Shown here: in pieces, positions 2,145 to 24,041 of the stretch
Layout: each line of letters starts with the position of its first letter
How positions within the stretch are numbered: position 1 is the first letter of the stretch
NCBI GenBank assembly: GCA_937141935.1
Contig: CAKZQS010000037.1
Span: forward strand, 1-35,000
Length of the DNA stretch: 35,000 nt
Reading direction: 5' to 3'
Source: an uncultured Ectothiorhodospiraceae bacterium
Lineage (GTDB): Bacteria > Pseudomonadota > Gammaproteobacteria > Nevskiales > Oceanococcaceae
Translations under genes and position numbers: made by a program
Notes under the pieces: generated by a model
The model's input: the letters and a program-made list of their open reading frames with translations, nothing else
What the model was told of the DNA's origin: nothing
The model's database searches: none

Positions 2145-3782
2145 TTAGCGGGTCTGCCCCGCGGCGCCGGTGGCCGTGGCGCAACTGATGGGGATACTGA
2201 AGCTTTCGCTCGTTCCATCCGCGCTAATCGTGGTGGTCTGCGTCGCAACAGCCCCGTTCAGGTCGCTGAAGCGCGGCGCGATGCTGACGTTGTACGTGGC
2301 GCCCTGCACCAGATCGCTGAGCTGGTAGGCACCGGCGCCCAGGTTGACCGCGGTAGTCGCCGACAGGCCGGACAACGCGTAGCGCACGACGCCCGCAACG
2401 ACGGGCACGCTGACGGTGGTGTCCTGCGTGCAGGTGGCGGTGAGGTTCAGCGTTTCGCTGACGTAGGTCACCGGCTCCTGCAAGGTCAGGTTGACGGTGC
2501 CGCACACCGGCACCTCGCTGACCGTGTCGGCCCAGCTGTTGTTGGCAAAGTCGAAGGCCCGCACTCGCGCCGTCGCCTCGGCGCTGACGCCATAGCGCGC
2601 GGCCAGGTCGCCCGTAAGCAGCCGCAGGCTGGTGGCACCCCCGGGCACATAGCCGGAGGCGGAGGCGTCGCTGGACGTTTCGGTGACAAGCAGGCCAGCG
2701 GCGGGGACGCTGGCCCCGTCGAAGGTCACCACCATGTCCTGCGTACAGGCCGGCGTGCTGCGGGTCAGTGCGAAGAAGGTGAGGTGGTCGGTGTTGAAGG
2801 CGGCCGTGTGGCTGCCTGTACCGGCATTCAACGGACCGACGGTGACGGTCTGGTTTTCGTTTTGCCATTGCCCGCTGCGCTCGTCATAGGAGAACAGCGC
2901 CAACACGTCGCCCTCGGCGATGTTGCGGCCGGCGTTCGGCAGCGGCGTGTCGGCCGGCAACTCCAGCGCGATGGTGACCGGCTGCGAGAACTGCGTGACC
3001 GGGTCGCCATTGGCATCGGTGATCTCGATGTTCGCGCCGGCCAGGGGCTTGCGCACGGTCCCGCCACCAGCCACGGAAAGCCCGTCGGAGAGCGCTCCGA
3101 TCAAGATTGCGTCGTCCGCATCCGGGGCAGTGCGTTCGACGTGGCTGACGTTGATCTGCACCTGGCCGCCATCGGCCAGGCTGCCGTCGGGGCCACGCAG
3201 GTCGGTGCCGGCCGGCAGCGTCAGCACGGCCCAGCCGGCATCGCTGCGCCCGCCGCTGCCATCGGTCCGGGTATCCACCACGGTTGCTGCCGGCAGGTTT
3301 CCGCTGGCGATATCTGCCGTCTGGGTGACGTCACCGACGCCATCCGCCTCGCGACTGATCAGCGGGATCAGAGCCACTACCGCATCGGCGCCCTCGGCGA
3401 AGGCCGCCAAGGACACCGTTTGGCTGCGCGGCAGGTAGCCAGGCGCCTGCACCGCGATTTGAATGCGGTCGACGGTGGAACTGCGGCGCTGCGCCACCAC
3501 AAAGTTGCCATCGCTGCTGCTCAGCGTCTGCAGCGCATCGCCGTTGACGTCGACGATGCTGGTCGCCGGCTGGCCGTTACGCAGGAAACTCACAGTGACG
3601 TTATCGACCGTGCGGCCGCTGGCGGCATCCACCACCGAGCCGTTGATGGCCTTGCTCAGCGCGCCCGGTTGCGGCGGCGCCACCACCGGCTCGCGGCCAC
3701 CCCCATTGTTGTCGTCATCACAGCCCCAAAGCCCGAAGGCCGCCACGCACAGCAGCGCGGTTCGCAGTGTGGAATTCCGCAT
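2145..3782 (-). CDS. cell-surface lipoprotein with carboxypeptidase-like regulatory fold
   Basis: A 545-residue exported lipoprotein. The signal sequence ends in LWGC (lipid Cys21), followed by DDDNN, an acidic run that may steer it to the outer membrane or surface. Residues about 48-110 (GSVVDAASGRTVDNVTVSF) look like a carboxypeptidase-D regulatory beta-sandwich. The middle (about 175-340) has GANIEITDANGDPVTQFSQPVTI and LFSYDERSGQW, the pattern of FAM171-like or ZU5-like beta domains. The rest holds two CTQD-containing beta modules. The ATG at 3782 is chosen because it starts the signal peptide and has GAGG about 12 nt upstream; the open frame goes further but adds no signal sequence. I see no catalytic motif; a binding or structural role is an inference. 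Confidence 0.75.
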   Translation of the reverse strand: MRNSTLRTALLCVAAFGLWGCDDDNNGGGREPVVAPPQPGALSKAINGSVVDAASGRTVDNVTVSFLRNGQPATSIVDVNGDALQTLSSSDGNFVVAQRRSSTVDRIQIAVQAPGYLPRSQTVSLAAFAEGADAVVALIPLISREADGVGDVTQTADIASGNLPAATVVDTRTDGSGGRSDAGWAVLTLPAGTDLRGPDGSLADGGQVQINVSHVERTAPDADDAILIGALSDGLSVAGGGTVRKPLAGANIEITDANGDPVTQFSQPVTIALELPADTPLPNAGRNIAEGDVLALFSYDERSGQWQNENQTVTVGPLNAGTGSHTAAFNTDHLTFFALTRSTPACTQDMVVTFDGASVPAAGLLVTETSSDASASGYVPGGATSLRLLTGDLAARYGVSAEATARVRAFDFANNSWADTVSEVPVCGTVNLTLQEPVTYVSETLNLTATCTQDTTVSVPVVAGVVRYALSGLSATTAVNLGAGAYQLSDLVQGATYNVSIAPRFSDLNGAVATQTTTISADGTSESFSIPISCATATGAAGQTR

Positions 3783-3960
3783 GAATATCGCCTCGTTCTC
3801 GTTCGTTATTGCCCTGTGGTGAGGGCCCCCAGCGGCAGGCGGCATGCCACACGCCCCCCGCTACGCACCAGCAAGGCAGCTATTGCCGCCGCGCAAAACC
3901 GCCCCGATGAGACGGCCGGCCGGGCTGATGCAAGTGTGTGGCCGCGAGAACCGACGCCCG

Positions 3961-6900
3961 CTAGGTGCCGCTGGCCGGCAGCTCCTCGGGCAGGATGCGG
4001 TTGTGCAGGTGGCGCAAAAAGCCCTCTTCGGACACGGCCGGGCTCTTCAGGAAGCCCTGCATCTCGTGGCAGCCCAGCGCCTGCAACGTTTGCCACTGCG
4101 CCTGCGTTTCCACGCCTTCGGCCACCGCGCGCATGCGCAGGCTATTGGCCAGCGCGGCAATGGCGCCGCAGATGCTGGCCTGGTTGTCGTCCTTGTCCAC
4201 ATCCCGCACAAATTCGCGATCGATCTTGACCGTATCGATCGAGAACTCCTTGAGGTGCGTCAGCGAGGAATAGCCCGTACCAAAATCATCCAGCGCCACC
4301 GAGAAACCGGCCTGCTTCAGCCGCAGCAGCGAGTCGCGCACCTGCTCGACATCGGCAACCACGGCGGACTCGGTCAGCTCGACCTCCAGCGCCTCGGGCG
4401 GCACGTGGTATTCGCGGCAGGTCTCGATCAGCGTCTCCACGATGGCCGGCTGGCCCAGGTTGGCGGCCGACAGGTTGATGGCGATGGGCACCGTTTCCTG
4501 GCCGGCATCGAACCACTGCCGCAAGGTGCGGCAGATCCGCCGGATCACCCAGCTGTCCAGCGCGTGGATCAGGTCGCTTTGCTCGGCCAGCGGCACGAAT
4601 TCGGAGGGGCTGACCCAGCCGCGCTGGTCGTCGTGCCAGCGCAGCAGCGCCTCGGCCCCCGTCACACGGTCGTCGCTGTCGTAGCGCGGCTGGAAATAGA
4701 GCTGCAGCTGGTCGTCGTCGATGGCGGCGCTCAGCCGGGATTCCAGCGCCACCCGGTCGGCCGCACGGGCCGTCATGGCGCGGTCGTAGACCGCAACCCG
4801 TGACGCCGCCGCGTCGCCCATAGAACGCGCGGCCGTCGCCGCGAAGCGCAGCAGGGTGGCGGCGTCCTTGGCATCCCGCGGCGCGAGGGCAATCCCGAAG
4901 TGCAGGCCCAGGGGGACGCGGTGCTCCTGATACTGCAAGTGCTTGGTGCCCTGCGACAGCATGCGGTTGGCCAGCTGCGCGGCCCCTTCCTCGCCGCCCG
5001 CTTCCAGCGCATAGACCGCGAGCAGGTCGCCATCCACGCGGGCGATGTCACGCCGACCCACGTGCTCCTCGGTGCCATGCACGACGCGCACCAGGCGCGC
5101 CGCAACCGCCCGCATCACCTCATCGTGCACCACATGCCCCAGAGCATCGGACACATTGCGCGGCACGGTGACCCGAACGCAGATCACGGCCACCGTCATG
5201 TCGTCGTCCTTCGCCCGCACCAGCGCTTCGGCCAGGCGCTGCGAAAACAGGTGCCGGTTCGGCATGCCGGTCAATCGATCGTAAAAGGCCAGCTGGGTGT
5301 AGCGCGCATGGCGCTCCTGGGCGCGCAGCTGGAAGCGCAGATAACCGTAAAGCGCGAGCGCGATGGCCGCGCAGTACAGGGCATAGGCCCACCAGGTTGC
5401 CCAGGGCGCGGGGTGCACGGTGATGCCGAGGCGGGCGATGTTTGCGGTCGCGACGCCATCGCTGTTGATGCCGCGCGCCTCCAGCAGGTAGTAACCGGGG
5501 TTGAGGTTGGTGTAACTGATCCGCCGCTGCGGCGAGTAGCGGCTCCAGCTGTCGTCGAATCCCACCAGGCGGTAGGAATAGACATTCTTCTCCGGCGCCG
5601 TGAAGTCCGTGATCGCAAACTCGAATGTCACGGCGTTGTCGGCGTGACCGAGCTCGAGCTGCTGTCGGGTGTAGACCGAGGCCGAGGCTGGCAGCCGGCG
5701 AAACAACTGCTGCACCTCGGTCAACACGATTCGCGGCGGGTTGGTGTTGGTCTCGACCGCAGCAGGGTCAAAGATGTTGAAGCCATTGGGGCCGCCAAAC
5801 AGCAGCTGGCCGTCCGCGCGCCGGTGGTAAGCGCCAAAATTGAACTCCTCGGAATACAGCCCGTGTTCGCGGTGATAGCTACGCACCTGATGGGTGCGGG
5901 TATCGATGCGGGAGATCCCGGAGTTGCTGCTGAGCCAGAGCCCGCCGGAGTCATCCGGCAGTACCGAGTAGATGACATTTCCGGACAAGCCCTGCGCACT
6001 TGTCACCCAGCGAAAACGCACCTCGTCGCGCTGCAGGGCCACGGCGCTCATCCGCCCCAGCCCGAAGCCGGCCGTGCCGATCCACACATCGCCGTCCTCG
6101 GACACATGCACGGCATAGATCGCATCGGAGCGCAATCCATAGGGCGTCTCGAACACGGCACGAATATGCCGTGCGACCTGGAGGTCCGCACCCACCATCA
6201 CCAGACCGGCGCCGTCGGTCCCGATCCAGATTTCGCCGTCAGGCGCCTCGGTAATGGCGGTCGGCCGAATGTTTTCGAGCAGGTCGCCGGACTGCAGGCG
6301 GTGGACCTGATCCGCGGAGTCGATCCAGGACACGCCACCGTTGAACGTGCCCACCCAAACGCGCCCCTGCGAATCCTCGAACAGCGACATCACGCCGGCG
6401 CTGCGCAGTGCGTTGGGGTCCGCACGATCCGCCGGAAAGCTACGCAGCGAGCCGTCGGCCGGGTCGTAGCGCAACAGCCCGCCCGCCAGCGTGCCGATCC
6501 AGAGCCTGTCGCGCCGGTCGCGCAGCAAGGCCATTACGCGCGCATCGGGGAGGTCGAACAGGCCCGCGGCCTTCGTCACCGGCCCGACCCGCACACCCTC
6601 ATGATTCAGGCGCACCATGCCGGCACCGATCGTTCCCATCCAGGTTTCGCCTTGCGGACCATCCGCAAAGGCGGTGACATGCGCGCCGGACAACCACTGC
6701 GGCGCGCGCGGGCCAAAAGACCAGCTTCGCGAGTTCCACCATGAGGCGCCGCCGCCACGGGTCCCCAGCCAGACGGCGCCGGCAGAATCCTGGTACACCG
6801 TCATCACGTCGTCGCCGCCCACGCTGAAGGGATCCGTGCGGTCATGCCGGATCCAGCGCGGCTCGGTGCCGCTCGCCGAATACACCAGCACGCCGGCGTC

Positions 6901-7794
6901 GGTGGCCGCCCATACCCGGCCGTCGCGATCCTCAAGCAAATCCTGAACCCGAGCGTCAGCGTCCAGCCCCTCCGGCCTTGGCAGGCGCTCCGCTGACCGC
7001 CCCGGCTCCCAGCGGGCGATATCCCCCGTGTTGGTCCCCAGCCACAAATCCCCATTCCGCGCGACCAACAGCGCCGTCAGCGGCGCTTCGAGCATCGGCG
7101 CGGCCGCGGTGGCGGCAACGGCGCGGAGGCGCGTATCGCCCACCGCCATGCGATACAGGCCACGCATGGTGGCCACCCAAACATCCCCCGAAGGCGACTC
7201 GGCGATCGCGGTCACCCGCAGGTCCGTCGGGCCGCCATCCACGGCGACCGCCTCGGGCTGGAACTGCGGCGCCTTGCTAAGGAATGCGCCAGCCCCGTCA
7301 GTGCCATGCCACACGGCACCATCACTCGCGGCGAGCAGCGAGGTCGCGCGCCGCCGAGGCGCACCTTCGGGCGCGCCGCCGGCGGGCAGGAAGGACTGAA
7401 AGCGCTCCTCGCTGCGGTCCCAGCGAATGACGCCCGCGTCATTGCTGGCCAGCCACAAATCGCCGCGGCTGTCCTCCGCAACCGCCCAGATGTAATCGCT
7501 GCGCAGACCACCGGGGTCGAGATAGTCGCGGTAGTAATGCGTGAACTCGTAGCCGTTGTAGCGGTTCAGGCCGTTCTCGGTGGCCAGCCACAAAAAGCCC
7601 TGCGAGTCCTGGTACACGTCCAACACCGTGTTCTGGCTCAGCCCTTCGCGGACCCCCATCGTCTCGAACAAAAAGGGCGCGCCCGCGCTCGCCAGCACCC
7701 CCGGCACCCACAGCAGCAGGCCCAGGCGGCAACACACCCCCAGTAGCATCGACAGGCCGGCATCCCTGAATCGCGGCCCGGATGAATTCGTCAC
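3961..7794 (-). CDS. beta-propeller sensor with degenerate GGDEF and intact EAL domain
   Basis: A 1277-residue membrane sensor and probable cyclic-di-GMP phosphodiesterase. Order: signal peptide (about 10-35); two seven-bladed-type propellers of the two-component-regulator repeat family, starting SQNTVLDVYQDSQGFLWLAT and continuing to about 690; a Y_Y_Y beta domain (YSYRLVGFDDSW, LNPGYYLLEARG); one membrane helix at about 801-820; GGDEF domain (about 837-960); EAL domain (about 1025-1265). The GGDEF signature reads DGDLL (921-925), so cyclase activity is unlikely. EAL residues are kept: E1048 in EALLRW, N1107, E1139, D1169/D1170 in DDFGTGYSS, K1190, E1226. A GTG start at 7794 with AAGGGG five nt upstream is preferred; an ATG at 7749 lacks a ribosome site. 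The ligand is unknown. It is transcribed divergently from the subtilase gene. Confidence 0.88.
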   Translation of the reverse strand: MTNSSGPRFRDAGLSMLLGVCCRLGLLLWVPGVLASAGAPFLFETMGVREGLSQNTVLDVYQDSQGFLWLATENGLNRYNGYEFTHYYRDYLDPGGLRSDYIWAVAEDSRGDLWLASNDAGVIRWDRSEERFQSFLPAGGAPEGAPRRRATSLLAASDGAVWHGTDGAGAFLSKAPQFQPEAVAVDGGPTDLRVTAIAESPSGDVWVATMRGLYRMAVGDTRLRAVAATAAAPMLEAPLTALLVARNGDLWLGTNTGDIARWEPGRSAERLPRPEGLDADARVQDLLEDRDGRVWAATDAGVLVYSASGTEPRWIRHDRTDPFSVGGDDVMTVYQDSAGAVWLGTRGGGASWWNSRSWSFGPRAPQWLSGAHVTAFADGPQGETWMGTIGAGMVRLNHEGVRVGPVTKAAGLFDLPDARVMALLRDRRDRLWIGTLAGGLLRYDPADGSLRSFPADRADPNALRSAGVMSLFEDSQGRVWVGTFNGGVSWIDSADQVHRLQSGDLLENIRPTAITEAPDGEIWIGTDGAGLVMVGADLQVARHIRAVFETPYGLRSDAIYAVHVSEDGDVWIGTAGFGLGRMSAVALQRDEVRFRWVTSAQGLSGNVIYSVLPDDSGGLWLSSNSGISRIDTRTHQVRSYHREHGLYSEEFNFGAYHRRADGQLLFGGPNGFNIFDPAAVETNTNPPRIVLTEVQQLFRRLPASASVYTRQQLELGHADNAVTFEFAITDFTAPEKNVYSYRLVGFDDSWSRYSPQRRISYTNLNPGYYLLEARGINSDGVATANIARLGITVHPAPWATWWAYALYCAAIALALYGYLRFQLRAQERHARYTQLAFYDRLTGMPNRHLFSQRLAEALVRAKDDDMTVAVICVRVTVPRNVSDALGHVVHDEVMRAVAARLVRVVHGTEEHVGRRDIARVDGDLLAVYALEAGGEEGAAQLANRMLSQGTKHLQYQEHRVPLGLHFGIALAPRDAKDAATLLRFAATAARSMGDAAASRVAVYDRAMTARAADRVALESRLSAAIDDDQLQLYFQPRYDSDDRVTGAEALLRWHDDQRGWVSPSEFVPLAEQSDLIHALDSWVIRRICRTLRQWFDAGQETVPIAINLSAANLGQPAIVETLIETCREYHVPPEALEVELTESAVVADVEQVRDSLLRLKQAGFSVALDDFGTGYSSLTHLKEFSIDTVKIDREFVRDVDKDDNQASICGAIAALANSLRMRAVAEGVETQAQWQTLQALGCHEMQGFLKSPAVSEEGFLRHLHNRILPEELPASGT

Positions 7795-7799
7795 GCAGT

Positions 7800-7805
7800 C
7801 CCCTT
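7800..7805 (-). promoter_or_regulatory. ribosome binding site that selects the GTG start of the sensor
   Basis: AAGGGG on the minus strand, 5 nt before GTG at 7794. The next ATG at 7749 has no comparable site, so this decides the start and gives a normal signal peptide n-region (basic RFRD). Confidence 0.55.
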
Positions 7806-8005
7806 CGTTGACGCGTAGTGGCACCCAGTGGCGGCACCGCAGTAAGTATGAAGGCAATGTACTGTGCGGGCCCCGGCCTGTCGAAGCGCGTAGGCGTTTT
7901 TACGATAGACCCTGTCAAAAAGCCGGCGTAAAGTGCGCCCTGAGAACCTGAGCCTGCGGCTGGGGGAAGCCGCTGTCCCGCCCCGCGCGGGAATTGGAGA
8001 ACGAA

Positions 8006-9832
8006 ATGCGCACATTGAGTGTGACGATTGGCGCTGTTGCAGCTCTGGCAGCTGCCGCGACCTTGTGGGTAGAAAACGGGGACTTGCCGGCAACGACCAC
8101 CGGCGCCGACGCGACCGCGACCGCGACCGCCGAGGTGGTCGCCGCGGCACCGCGTGCGCCCTCCGCGCTGCAGCGTTTTATTGTTCAGGGCCCCAGCCAC
8201 GAGCAGGCCCGTGCCTGGGTCGAGGCCGCAGGCGGCGAGATCATCAGCGTGCTGCCCGTGATTCGCGGCGTCGGCGCGCGCCTGTCGGCGCAGCAGGTTG
8301 CGGCGCTGCGCGAGCAACCCGGCCTGCGGCTGCAACGCGACCGCAACCTGCAGCTCAGCGACGATGACGATGACGAGCGCGAAGGCCAGGCCCAGCAGCC
8401 CGCCGTGTCGCCCTTCGCCGCCTGGATCGGCGCCGACCGCGTGCACGCCAGCGGCATCGACGGCAGCGGCGTGACCGTCGCCTTCATCGACACCGGCCTT
8501 TGGCAGCGCGCCGCGCGCCACGCCCGCCTGCGGGCGCAGGTCGATCTGGTCGGCGATGCGACGGTCGAGCAGCCGGGCCGGCAGCCGCAGGACGGCTATG
8601 GCCACGGCACCCACATCATGTCGACGGTGGCCCACCCGGCCTACGAGCGCAATGCGCGCTACACCGGCATTGCGCCCGGCGCCGACCTGGTCAGTGTGCG
8701 CGCCTTCGACGACGCGGGCCTGGGCAGCTACATCGACGTCATCGAAGGCATCGAATGGGTGTTGCGGCAGCGCGAGGCGCTCGACATCCGCGTGTTGAAC
8801 CTCTCCTTTGGCGCGCAACCGCAGTCGCGCTACTGGGACGACCCGCTGAATCAGGCGGTGATGGCCGCCTGGGAGGCGGGCATTGTCGTGGTGGCCTCCG
8901 CCGGCAACGAGGGCCCCGACGCCATGACCATCGGCGTGCCGGGCAATGTGCCCTACGTCATCACCGTGGGTGCGGCCAGTGACAACCACACCTGGCGCGA
9001 TGTCAGCGACGACTTTTTGAGTACCTTCTCCTCCGCCGGCCCCACCACCGAGGCCTTCGTCAAACCGGACCTGCTGGGCCCGGGCGACCGCGTGCTGGGG
9101 CTGATGCCGCCGGCCAGCCACCTGGCGCAGACCTATGGCGCCCAGTCGCAGGTCCGCGGCGCGTATCACGCCCTGTCCGGCACATCGCAGGCGGCGGCGA
9201 TCACCAGCGGCGTGGCCGCGCTGCTGCTGCAGGCCGATCCCGGCCTCGACCCGGATACGGTCAAGTGCCGCCTGATGGCCTCGGCGCAGCTGGCGATGGC
9301 CTCCGAAAGCACCTTGCAGTACTCGCTGTTCCAGCAGGGTGCCGGCCTGGTCAACGCCTGGGAGGCGGTGCACAGCGATGCACGCGACTGCGCCAATGTG
9401 GGCATGGATGTGGCCGCCGACCTTGCCGGCGAGCAGCACTACATGGGCCCGGCCGCGATGAGCGAAGCCGGCGATTTCTACATAGTCGATGCGGAGGGCT
9501 ACCCCATTGAGGCCGATGGCTACGTGTGGGGCGGCCGCTACACGCAAAGCCAGGGTTATATCTGGGGTGGGCGCAACCTCTTCAGCCTGGGTTACACCTG
9601 GGGCGGCCGTTACCTGCAGAGCCAGGGCTACACCTGGGGCGGGCGGGTCAACCCCGACGGCTACACCTGGGGCGGGCGTGTCGACCCGGACGGTTACACC
9701 TGGGGTGGGCGCGTCGAGCCCGATGGTTACACCTGGGGCGGGCGCGTTGAGCCCGACGGCTACACATGGGGCGGGCGCAACACGGCCGTGCTAGGTGTGA
9801 ACCGCTATGTTGCCCCCGAAGAGGCGCGTTAG
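8006..9832 (+). CDS. exported S8 subtilisin-like serine protease with C-terminal WGG repeats
   Basis: A 608-residue secreted protease. Order: signal peptide (1-20); Ala/Thr-rich linker; I9-like propeptide (about 55-117, with FIVQGPSHEQARAWVEAAGG); acidic DDDDDE; S8 catalytic domain (about 135-470). The catalytic triad is D162 in AFIDTG, H200 in GHGTH and S394 in GTSQAAA, with oxyanion Asn301 in SAGNEG. After residue 500 come eight repeats of GY[VIT]WGGR (505-591), the first three spaced by 12 residues and the rest by 11. The ATG at 8006 is chosen for GGAGA five nt upstream; a TTG 12 nt earlier is in frame. It is divergent from the propeller sensor, with a 211-bp gap, and is followed by a clear terminator. 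The protease family is certain; the repeats' role is not known to me. Confidence 0.92.
   Translation: MRTLSVTIGAVAALAAAATLWVENGDLPATTTGADATATATAEVVAAAPRAPSALQRFIVQGPSHEQARAWVEAAGGEIISVLPVIRGVGARLSAQQVAALREQPGLRLQRDRNLQLSDDDDDEREGQAQQPAVSPFAAWIGADRVHASGIDGSGVTVAFIDTGLWQRAARHARLRAQVDLVGDATVEQPGRQPQDGYGHGTHIMSTVAHPAYERNARYTGIAPGADLVSVRAFDDAGLGSYIDVIEGIEWVLRQREALDIRVLNLSFGAQPQSRYWDDPLNQAVMAAWEAGIVVVASAGNEGPDAMTIGVPGNVPYVITVGAASDNHTWRDVSDDFLSTFSSAGPTTEAFVKPDLLGPGDRVLGLMPPASHLAQTYGAQSQVRGAYHALSGTSQAAAITSGVAALLLQADPGLDPDTVKCRLMASAQLAMASESTLQYSLFQQGAGLVNAWEAVHSDARDCANVGMDVAADLAGEQHYMGPAAMSEAGDFYIVDAEGYPIEADGYVWGGRYTQSQGYIWGGRNLFSLGYTWGGRYLQSQGYTWGGRVNPDGYTWGGRVDPDGYTWGGRVEPDGYTWGGRVEPDGYTWGGRNTAVLGVNRYVAPEEAR
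9518..9778 (+). repeat. tandem GYxWGGR-coding repeats
   Basis: Eight in-frame units inside the subtilase gene. The last five WGGR cores sit exactly 33 bp apart (GYTWGGRVxPD pattern), the earlier ones 36 bp apart. The DNA of the 33-bp units is nearly identical apart from third positions and one variable codon (Asn, Asp, Glu, Glu), which points to recent duplication by slippage or unequal crossing over. Confidence 0.92.
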
Positions 9833-9931: not shown

Positions 9932-10579
9932 CTAGGCCGGCGAGGCGCGCCCGGGGTCGGCGGCCGGCGTGGGCTGCGCAATAAAGCCAAAGGGCTGTTC
10001 CAGGCTGCCGCGCACCCATTCCAAGCGCAGGGCGGCATCGCCCCAGGGCAGCGTGACCGGGTGGGCTTCCGGTGCCTGCCAGGCCGCGGCCAGCGTGTCT
10101 TCGCTCAGGGGCCGCCCACCGGCTTCCTGCAGCAGCTCCAATAGCAGCGCCTGATCCTGCTCGTGCAGCAGGGCCAGCGCCGGTCGCTCCTCGTTCGCGT
10201 CGGGCGCCAGCGGCGCATCGTCGGCGCAAATCGCACCCGCGAAATACAGCGCTTCATCATCGCCGCGCAGCAACCGTCGTGGCTGCAGCCGCGCGCCGGT
10301 TTGCACGCGCAGCCAGGGCGTGCCCTGCGCCGGGATTTCCAGCCGCGCGACATAGGGCGCCACCTCCAGGGCCACATGCACCGCCTGCGGTCCGTTCTGA
10401 AAGATGTAGCTGCCGCTGGGGTGGCGCAAGTAATTGCGCGCGATGAATTCGCGCAACGCGGGGTTGCTGATGCCCTCGCCGCGCAGCCGCCAGTGGCCGC
10501 GCCGGTCCAGGGCCAGCCAGCCGTAGATGTCCGGCACATTCGGCCACTGCTGCAGCGCGCGGCGTACCCGTTCGTCCAT
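9932..10579 (-). CDS. conserved protein of unknown function (DUF294x-like family)
   Basis: 215 residues, cytoplasmic, no signal peptide. The N-terminus MDERVRRALQQWPNVPDIYG followed by GWLALDRRGHWR, then FIARNYLRHPSGSYIFQNGPQ and VHVALEVAPYV, matches from memory a proteobacterial family of unknown function best known from pseudomonads (DUF2946 or DUF2944; I am not sure of the number). The ATG at 10579 is chosen because similarity starts exactly there. The C-terminal part is more variable and ends in a Pro/Ala-rich tail. It runs tail-to-tail with the subtilase and head-to-head, 42 bp apart, with a small exported protein. No function is proposed. Confidence 0.78.
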   Translation of the reverse strand: MDERVRRALQQWPNVPDIYGWLALDRRGHWRLRGEGISNPALREFIARNYLRHPSGSYIFQNGPQAVHVALEVAPYVARLEIPAQGTPWLRVQTGARLQPRRLLRGDDEALYFAGAICADDAPLAPDANEERPALALLHEQDQALLLELLQEAGGRPLSEDTLAAAWQAPEAHPVTLPWGDAALRLEWVRGSLEQPFGFIAQPTPAADPGRASPA

Positions 10580-10610
10580 GCAAGCGCTCTTCGAGGCGGG
10601 CGGTCTTGGC

Positions 10611-10616
10611 ATTATC
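10611..10616 (-). promoter_or_regulatory. possible -10 element for the DUF protein gene
   Basis: GATAAT on the minus strand, about 31 bp before the ATG at 10579. No convincing -35 hexamer. Its upstream part would overlap the start of the divergent small gene. Confidence 0.3.
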
Positions 10617-10621
10617 GGCCG

Positions 10622-10885
10622 ATGCGCCGCCTGCCGCTCGCCACCCTGCTCCTGCTGTGCCTGCTGGCCGTGCTGGGCCTGCGCGGCAGCCACCCGGGTC
10701 ATGGCACGGCCAGCGGTGACGTGGTGGAGCGGCCCCCGATCGTCTGCGTCAGTGGCCGCCAGTACACCCGCTGCCCCAGCGATTGCGAAGCCGGCCCGCG
10801 CGGCGAGGCGCATTGCCGCTGCCAGGACTTCTACCTGCGCCGCAACGGGCAGGCGCTGCAATACAGCCACCAGCTCTGCCGCTGA
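10622..10885 (+). CDS. small exported cysteine-containing protein
   Basis: 87 residues. A clean signal peptide (MRRLPLATLLLLCLLAVLG) leads to a short mature part with six cysteines after residue 40 (VCVSG, YTRCPSDC, HCRCQDF, QLCR). This suggests a disulfide-stabilised periplasmic or secreted peptide. The start is the ATG at 10622, giving the hydrophobic leader; ribosome binding is weak. It ends 83 bp before trhO and begins 42 bp from the divergent DUF gene, so it could share a regulatory region with the latter. I recognise no family. It could be spurious given the GC content, but leader plus paired cysteines argue for a real gene. Confidence 0.55.
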   Translation: MRRLPLATLLLLCLLAVLGLRGSHPGHGTASGDVVERPPIVCVSGRQYTRCPSDCEAGPRGEAHCRCQDFYLRRNGQALQYSHQLCR

Positions 10886-23233: not shown

Positions 23234-23257
23234 CGCGGCAAGGCCCACCGCGCGGGG

Positions 23258-23342
23258 CGATATTGCTGGCGGGGCCGTATCGCTGGCGGGGCGGCTTCGC
23301 TATCGGGGTCGTGCTCCTGGCGGGGCGGGCTCCCTAGCGGGG
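23258..23342. repeat. five 17-bp tandem repeats between convergent genes
   Basis: Five consecutive 17-mers, all ending CGGGG (for example CCGTATCGCTGGCGGGG at 23275-23291). The spacing is exact while the first half of each unit varies. A worn sixth unit may precede them (23241-23257). The last unit overlaps the stop codon and final codons of the amidotransferase gene on the minus strand. Confidence 0.75.
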
Positions 23343-24041
23343 CTGGGTCAGGCCCAGATCCGCCAGCCAGCGGGTTGCGACCCGCTCGGCCTTGCGCGCG
23401 GGCTCCGTACCCCAGCGGTTCACGGCCTCGCGCAGGCCCTGCGGCGCGATGCCATGCCGGGCCAGCTCGCAGGTGTGACCCACCAGCCAGGGTTCGACCT
23501 CGCCGGAGAACTCCGGGTGGAACTGGCAGGCCAGCACATGCCGCTCGATGGCAAAGGCCTGCTGCGCGCACAGCGCGCTGCGTGCCAGCGCCGTGGCACC
23601 GGTCGGCAGCGCGAACTGCTCGCCATGCCAGTGCCAGGCCAGGGGCTCGTCGGCATAGGTCTCCAGGCAGCTCTCGTGGCCCTCCGGCGTCAGCTCGATG
23701 GGCGCCACGCCGATCTCGGGCTCGGCAGCCGCCTCCACCACGGCCCCCAGGGCGCGCGCGATCAGCTGCGCGCCCAGGCACAAGCCGAGCAGCGGCTGGC
23801 CCGCGTCGATGCGCCGCGCGGTCAGCTCCAGCAGCGCGGGCAGATGGGGATATTGCGCAGCATCGTTGACGCTGATCGGACCGCCCAGCAGCACCAGCAC
23901 ATCGGCCGCGGCGGCGGCCTCGGGGGCCTGCGGGCTCCAGGCATCCAGCGTGTGGATCGCCAGGCCCTGGCGCAAAAAGGGTGCGGCGAAGCCGTCCAGG
24001 GTTTCAAAGGCCACGTGGCGCAGCACCAGGGCGTGGGGCAT
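23334..24041 (-). CDS. class I glutamine amidotransferase (GMP-synthase-like)
   Basis: 235 residues, a stand-alone class I GATase domain, cytoplasmic. Catalytic triad: Cys88 in LLGLCLGAQ, His175 and Glu177 in CQFHPEFS; GGPISVND (53-60) forms the oxyanion strand. Such stand-alone forms resemble YfeJ-like proteins and gamma-glutamyl-compound hydrolases; no partner synthetase is encoded nearby, so the acceptor reaction is unknown. The ATG at 24041 begins the first beta-strand MPHALVLRHV. The open frame upstream overlaps the divergent gene and is not used. The 3' end is formed by a 17-bp tandem repeat, giving the C-terminal residues. Confidence 0.85.
   Translation of the reverse strand: MPHALVLRHVAFETLDGFAAPFLRQGLAIHTLDAWSPQAPEAAAAADVLVLLGGPISVNDAAQYPHLPALLELTARRIDAGQPLLGLCLGAQLIARALGAVVEAAAEPEIGVAPIELTPEGHESCLETYADEPLAWHWHGEQFALPTGATALARSALCAQQAFAIERHVLACQFHPEFSGEVEPWLVGHTCELARHGIAPQGLREAVNRWGTEPARKAERVATRWLADLGLTQPR

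Follow-up and report, generated by a model that had tools for sequence, protein, structure and literature searches.

We report that the S8 subtilase encoded at 8006-9832 of the window, by which we mean the whole stretch of 35,000 nucleotides analysed here, ends in an aromatic repeat tail of a type that is found in related subtilases of several phyla, and that genes of this family recurrently adjoin genes for propeller sensors, in the window a divergent gene whose product carries GGDEF and EAL domains. We tentatively propose that subtilase and sensor constitute a two-gene module in which the tail of like units would act as a recognition surface and the sensor would set c-di-GMP, a reading that we consider quite possible, if just short of probable. 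The features of the two genes are as follows.

8006-9832, forward strand: S8 subtilase CDS, 608 amino acids with the ATG at 8006 (7994 is an alternative ORF start)
8006-8080, forward strand: N-terminal hydrophobic segment, probable Sec signal peptide (predicted from the sequence; the model has a low-confidence helix at residues 5-19)
8171-8359, forward strand: prodomain-like fold, residues 56-118 (model mostly confident there; Foldseek top match ProN-Tk-SP, 3afg)
8462-9346, forward strand: Peptidase_S8 catalytic domain, residues 153-447 (PF00082, E 3.3e-46, 158.3 bits)
9383-9517, forward strand: conserved pre-tail linker, CANxGxDxxxDLxGxxHYxGP... (comparison of relatives)
9518-9778, forward strand: eight GY[VIT]WGGR units, period 12 and then 11 residues (sequence, TRF, tail profile)
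9779-9829, forward strand: C-terminal end containing GVNRYVAPEEAR, which likely corresponds to the INxWVxQE of the family (relatives' tails)
7858-8005, no strand: gap of 148 bp between the divergent subtilase ATG and the first possible sensor start (coordinates)
3961-7857, reverse strand: propeller sensor with Reg_prop repeats, Y_Y_Y, TM, GGDEF and EAL (PF07494, PF07495, PF00990, PF00563; TM by eye)
4819-5289, reverse strand: GGDEF domain with degenerate signature, VDGDL (Pfam; motif check)
4039-4737, reverse strand: EAL domain, signature motifs apparently intact (Pfam; motif check)

The initial annotation had described an intact S8 triad, and D162 (DTG), H200 (HGTH) and S394 (GTSQ) are in place, as is N301, residues that we take to be the catalytic ones; the triad and the PF00082 score place the protein in Peptidase S8. 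The Pfam scan returned PF00082 only, with neither an I9 match nor a LapG-type cysteine protease domain, and the AlphaFold model, confident over the prodomain and much of the enzyme, shows a prodomain-like fold aligned with ProN-Tk-SP. Against the NCBIfam T7SS mycosin model TIGR03921 the protein scores 123.2 bits, under the cut-off of 278.75, and it is thus not a mycosin. The best PDB relatives are Tk-SP entries, both by sequence (9ues, 3afg) and by structure (3afg; the Foldseek search used the window model only and was read for the enzyme part alone), and Tk-SP and Tk-subtilisin (S8, Thermococcus) share the catalytic fold and the prodomain-like fold of the window subtilase; neither a Trp repeat tail nor a linked sensor is known to us in these enzymes. 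Judged by its N-terminal segment, the window subtilase is probably secreted or exported. Downstream of it, at 9932-10870 on the reverse strand, lies a gene matching PF11161 (DUF2944), a family of unassigned function.

The eight GY[VIT]WGGR units that had been noted initially lie at exactly 9518-9778, that is residues 505-591, with W-to-W spacings of 12, 12 and 12 followed by 11, 11, 11 and 11. When residues 471-608 were shuffled 20,000 times, a single unit appeared in two shuffles and more than one in none, and the array is therefore far beyond chance. No Pfam or NCBIfam model, the hexapeptide transferase repeat included, matched the tail at E<=1. Towards the end of the array the copies recur every 33 bp (TRF: 4.6 copies, 88% match; 33-nt steps), and the near-identical DNA described initially is thus borne out as far as likeness goes, but the copies are not freshly duplicated because silent sites have diverged under a conserved peptide (pS 0.51 and pN 0.047 for the eight 21-nt cores). 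Elsewhere in the window, at 23252-23343, there are short tandem repeats of 17/34 bp.

The window tail, with spacings of 12 and 11, departs from a strict W period of six, which is the rule among its relatives. A tail profile, A4, which was built from the tails and linker of 25 named relatives with the window excluded, matches the window at 9452-9670 (E 9.4e-10), a match that is partly to the linker, and by this profile the window protein belongs to the Trp-hexad-tail subtilase family as defined in this analysis. At E<=1e-6 A4 reached only four of 276 gammaproteobacterial genomes, the window's own counted, and of its five matches three lie within S8 ORFs and two extend past the edge of the retrieved locus. 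A possible parse of the 12-residue unit is a pair of hexads, the second without its W (GYVWGG/RYTQSQ), and the 11-12-residue unit of the window is a variant of the family's six-residue type.

Orthologues with about 50% identity were present in all three other genomes of the window's family that were searched; two have tails of AYIWSR hexads and the third, from the same genus, has GDPWGGGY. At the level of the order this subtilase was found at E<=1e-60 in six of 85 genomes (the window's included), and one of these relatives has DGYTWGGAGSGGTTA units of about 15 residues. A scan of named genomes gave 298 relatives, the best 80 of which were kept for analysis; these 80 come mostly from MAGs of Gammaproteobacteria, Acidobacteriota and Chloroflexota, the few isolates among them including two Peristeroidobacter, Steroidobacter gossypii, Thiocystis violacea and a Colwellia. 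Of these best 80 of 298, 74 have three or more W in a period of six residues, and 76 do so if F counts. Among the six others, L027 is cut and has a longer unit, L041 is cut, L084 contains a run of N, L033 has only two in-register units with a contig end close by, and L049 and L087 have regular units with F in the W position throughout; L070 reaches the W count only via its shifted frame. Unit wordings among relatives include GYLWTD, GYIWPD and AYIWSR. For the 86 tails of named loci the consensus around W is G-[YF]-x-W-[STN]-[DN], and 601 of the 768 W-to-W spacings listed are exactly 6. A terminal W motif resembling INxWVxQE closes 72 of 82 complete tails; of the 73 tails with both end motifs present, 56 have a distance divisible by six between first and last array W, and in 42 the final array W stands 13 residues ahead of the terminal W. 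Conservation beyond one strain, the absence of which had been named initially as part of what would refute the reading, thus applies to the tail type, which spans several phyla, but not to the exact GYxWGGR unit, which was seen only in the window genome among the loci compared. In the Chloroflexota relatives L121, L122 and L126 the catalytic domain is followed by no Trp tail, and L118 and L119 (also Chloroflexota, distant subtilase relatives) have a five-residue Trp repeat, SVNWN, and no hexads. Among viruses, 65 pattern matches were obtained and none encodes a relative.

One explanation for such regularity is that the tail self-associates or folds as a beta element, in the manner of a solenoid or fibril, and that it stabilises or polymerises the enzyme and is unrelated to the sensor pairing. 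The prevalence of W spans that are multiples of six, the likeness of the units within a protein and the consistent use of F in L049 and L087 all fit this explanation, but neither of the two tails modelled with AlphaFold came out as a confident fold, pLDDT being about 26-42 in the window tail and 23-38 over most of the pure hexad tail of L034. Moreover, copy number varies, as does the period, which across the family is 6, 11, 12 or about 15, and 5 in some Chloroflexota. The stacked beta structure suggested in the initial annotation therefore finds no backing in the models, and we regard a beta element as unlikely. The relatives of the window protein share the six-residue period of the left-handed beta-helix hexapeptide repeats, from which the window tail differs in matching no Pfam model and both modelled tails in lacking a confident fold; the aliphatic-Gly hexad that is the motif of hexapeptide repeats is absent from the Trp tails.

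Comparison of the units within each array suggests what is being maintained. Over 79 arrays the median pS is 0.60 and the median pN 0.10, with pN below pS in 76, and in 77 arrays (695 units) identity at the residue before W is 0.80 within proteins versus 0.24 between them. In these 77 arrays the overall codon identity at matching residues, 0.58, exceeds the 0.48 that each gene's own usage predicts, hence some duplication is recent; the excess is below 0.05, that is, codon choice is near-random, in 31 of them. L034 is an example, with ten identical GYLWSD units and a codon identity of 0.35 (0.40 expected). Since agreement within proteins is high while codons are near-random in those 31 arrays, selection acts on the peptide, and many arrays are kept alike as peptide and not as DNA. 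We also considered whether recent duplication of DNA accounts for all of the likeness between copies, and this was ruled out by the pN/pS and codon data. Identical-DNA arrays disrupt assembly and may be absent from MAGs.

Neutral slippage, which would leave the repeats without function, would be in keeping with the recent share of duplication and with unit wording and copy number that differ between related species, but a pN far under pS, the near-random codons and a type conserved across phyla make it barely credible, and we disfavour it. The one frame-broken array seen is that of L070 (3833-5608), which shifts frame midway so that NPFVDG units pass into an arginine-rich reading; L087, on the same contig, is the intact paralogue of this subtilase, and the frame change may be phase switching of repeat arrays or an assembly error. 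The initial suggestion of a repeated surface is strengthened, as one under selection, by the purifying selection on the units, their agreement within proteins and the conservation of the tail type across phyla.

The propeller part of the window sensor is the single match in its genome at E<=1e-15. The TM between Y_Y_Y and GGDEF implies that the propeller should face the compartment that would receive the Sec-exported subtilase. The output is probably that of a phosphodiesterase, as the GGDEF domain is degenerate and the EAL domain looks intact, verdicts for which we presume the usual signature motifs. We know of no established signal for propeller GGDEF-EAL proteins. Adjoining the sensor, at 2145-3845 on the reverse strand, is a 566-aa ORF with no Pfam match at E<=0.01.

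An exported protease gene beside a gene for a membrane GGDEF-EAL protein is also the layout of LapG/LapD. According to PMC3032553, LapD has a HAMP domain and GGDEF and EAL domains that are both inactive or degenerate, and upon c-di-GMP binding it sequesters LapG, a cysteine protease. By analogy, control might run inside-out, the c-di-GMP-bound GGDEF-EAL protein capturing the subtilase via its propeller, perhaps by the Trp tail, and thereby controlling surface cleavage. The shared layout and the degenerate GGDEF of the window sensor speak for such control, but the EAL motifs of the window sensor appear intact, other pairs use kinases and the window protease is of type S8 and not a LapG-type cysteine protease; we therefore consider it improbable. 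LapD is not known to have a propeller.

As regards the outputs of the sensors across loci, fusions of the propeller to GGDEF-EAL occur in the window, L104, L109, L110, L111 and L113, and fusions to GGDEF in L106 and in one of the two sensors of L103. L101 and L103 have a propeller kinase with REC and Hpt adjoining a separate REC-GGDEF-EAL gene, in L107 REC-GGDEF-EAL stands next to a kinase propeller, and in L112, also with a kinase propeller, GGDEF-EAL ORFs stand on both sides of the pair. In total, a c-di-GMP domain (GGDEF or EAL) is in or beside the sensor in 11 of 15 regions (the window and L100-L113), and kinase propellers with no c-di-GMP gene seen nearby were found in L100, L102, L105, L108 and L125. 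In the 39 loci with a propeller in the shorter retrieved flanks, 19 show EAL or GGDEF, 10 kinase only and 10 neither, many of these sensors being cut. In 14 genomes, EAL matches number 6-39 per genome. In L050 (Chloroflexota) a kinase and an OmpR-type regulator are present and a propeller is not. None of the sensors that were scanned over their full length (window, L101, L103, L110 and L111) contains a DNA-binding domain, and action downstream of the protease therefore fits better than control of its gene.

The pairing itself was examined in 84 family loci: 79 named ones, L016 having been dropped as a duplicate of L009, plus L009, L010, L011, L013 and L014. L016 (an Oceanococcus MAG) and L009 (genome G003) have the same tail and the same contig coordinates, and the 84 loci are not independent, since L014 and L027 share a tail, L090 and L092 are the same protein and several loci share a genome. 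The propeller family is present in the retrieved flank of 39 of the 84 loci, and in 26 of the 44 with both flanks of at least 1.5 kb; the nearest propeller is downstream on the same strand in 26, divergent in 10 and upstream in 3 of the 39. Any of propeller, EAL, GGDEF or kinase is found in 51 of 84 loci (32 of 44 with both flanks), and none of them in the retrieved flanks of 33 (12 of 44). The propeller count of 39 is based on the propeller HMM, as the single-linkage neighbour clusters, which cover 50 of 84 loci, lump propellers together with further signalling genes.

Whole genomes were searched with an 801-aa propeller query. In 14 genomes, ten picked for a sensor in the flank and four (G000, G001, G002 and G064) by kinship, 26 of 31 family members have a propeller within 6 kb, compared with 8 of 39 in 12 genomes picked oppositely, for a named locus with no propeller seen in its flank. 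For other, non-family S8 matches in the genomes examined the count is 0 of 25, these controls being the S8 sites reached by the family profile at E<=1e-20 and <=202 bits and not every S8 (one, G370:C65, begins at a contig end). In the 6-kb count, propeller pieces of one ORF were merged and G365 was counted once, and the tail-only fragments G361:C36, G368:C227 and two of G368:C261, plus G375:C165, were omitted. In the four genomes picked by kinship the propeller beside the subtilase is the sole match at E<=1e-15. Pfam Reg_prop gave no match over the 14 genomes and 14 control genomes, where the 24-residue model probably cannot reach the threshold set. A distant subtilase subfamily with Trp repeats also lies beside propellers in L114, L115 and L116, and no propeller was seen in the stretch examined in its members L117 and L120. 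Tandem tailed subtilases, mostly with different unit wording, stand near one or two propeller sensors in L106, L125 and L103.

For 33 of 34 adjacent pairs, which were taken into the analysis, subtilase and propeller distances correlate with r 0.76 (the maximum in 2000 permutations was 0.27), and the nearest neighbours of both partners agree in 16 of the 33; the paralogous pairs L025 and L100, in one genome, each share the nearest neighbour for both partners. Shared ancestry explains part of this correlation. Charge co-variation between tail and propeller was considered and dropped as not specific to the tail: it is positive (rho 0.41) but weaker than that between catalytic domain and propeller (0.66).

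Bacteroides HTCS, according to PMC3243724, recognise oligosaccharides and control loci that are usually adjacent, and Reg_prop/Y_Y_Y input and genes adjoining those of degradative enzymes are likewise features of the Bacteroidetes HTCS. The present sensors differ from them in that the outputs are GGDEF-EAL, GGDEF or kinase and the partner is a protease; an HTCS combines Reg_prop, Y_Y_Y and TM with kinase, receiver and DNA-binding domains in one chain, whereas the window sensor has a GGDEF-EAL output. LapG/LapD and the Bacteroidetes HTCS are the nearest working analogies, and the window pair is a member of neither. The HTCS likeness raises the alternative of a nutrient-type pairing, in which the protease would do no more than break down external protein, the propeller would respond to the resulting products and the tail would separately hold the enzyme on a surface or polymer. 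Besides the input domains typical of Bacteroides HTCS (PMC3243724), it draws support from tailed subtilases in genomes without a propeller match, such that tail and sensor may be independent: G367 and G377 have tailed family subtilases (L018 and L031) and no propeller at E<=1e-15, and the tail thus does not serve the propeller only. Yet no uptake genes recur within about 4 kb, where the neighbour clusters present in at least four of the 84 loci are the subtilase, signalling genes and a third (7 loci) whose representative ORF overlaps the subtilase on the opposite strand, and the sensors scanned whole lack the DNA-binding domain. Overall we hold a nutrient-type pairing to be somewhat unlikely, though a serious contender.

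In the two-gene module that we favour, the prodomain-bearing subtilase would be exported with its tail as an array of short aromatic units selected for mutual likeness, and the inner-membrane sensor would have the propeller as periplasmic input and GGDEF-EAL as output. What the propeller reads might be made by the protease or be the protease itself, the sensor would then alter cytoplasmic c-di-GMP, and the tail may be a multivalent recognition element. Contact between tail and propeller is something that we infer, since AlphaFold assigns the tail no confident fold and some genomes have tails but no such propeller. A bolder version would make the tail a multicopy peptide signal or ligand, its about 5-12 like aromatic units being excised by, or presented on, the protease that carries them and read by the adjacent propeller, which sets c-di-GMP. 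We see this as a long shot; lineage-specific wording together with strong agreement between copies would then mark a recognition code, and several phyla would have in common a self-contained circuit of protease, peptide and c-di-GMP. In the literature, of which few subscription papers were covered, we found no report on this pairing of protease and propeller sensor, on a subtilase with a WGG repeat, or on a two-component regulator propeller with GGDEF and c-di-GMP.

The window copy of this tail type went unrecognised by Pfam and NCBIfam. Like units over near-random codons represent a clear case of selection for repeat sameness, and the role of the tail is directly testable. If the module is as we propose, a tail type of several phyla would mark exported proteases that are wired to propeller sensors and often to c-di-GMP, it would constitute a second partnership of protease and GGDEF-EAL protein besides LapG/LapD, built from unrelated parts, and it would provide an input for propeller GGDEF-EAL proteins.
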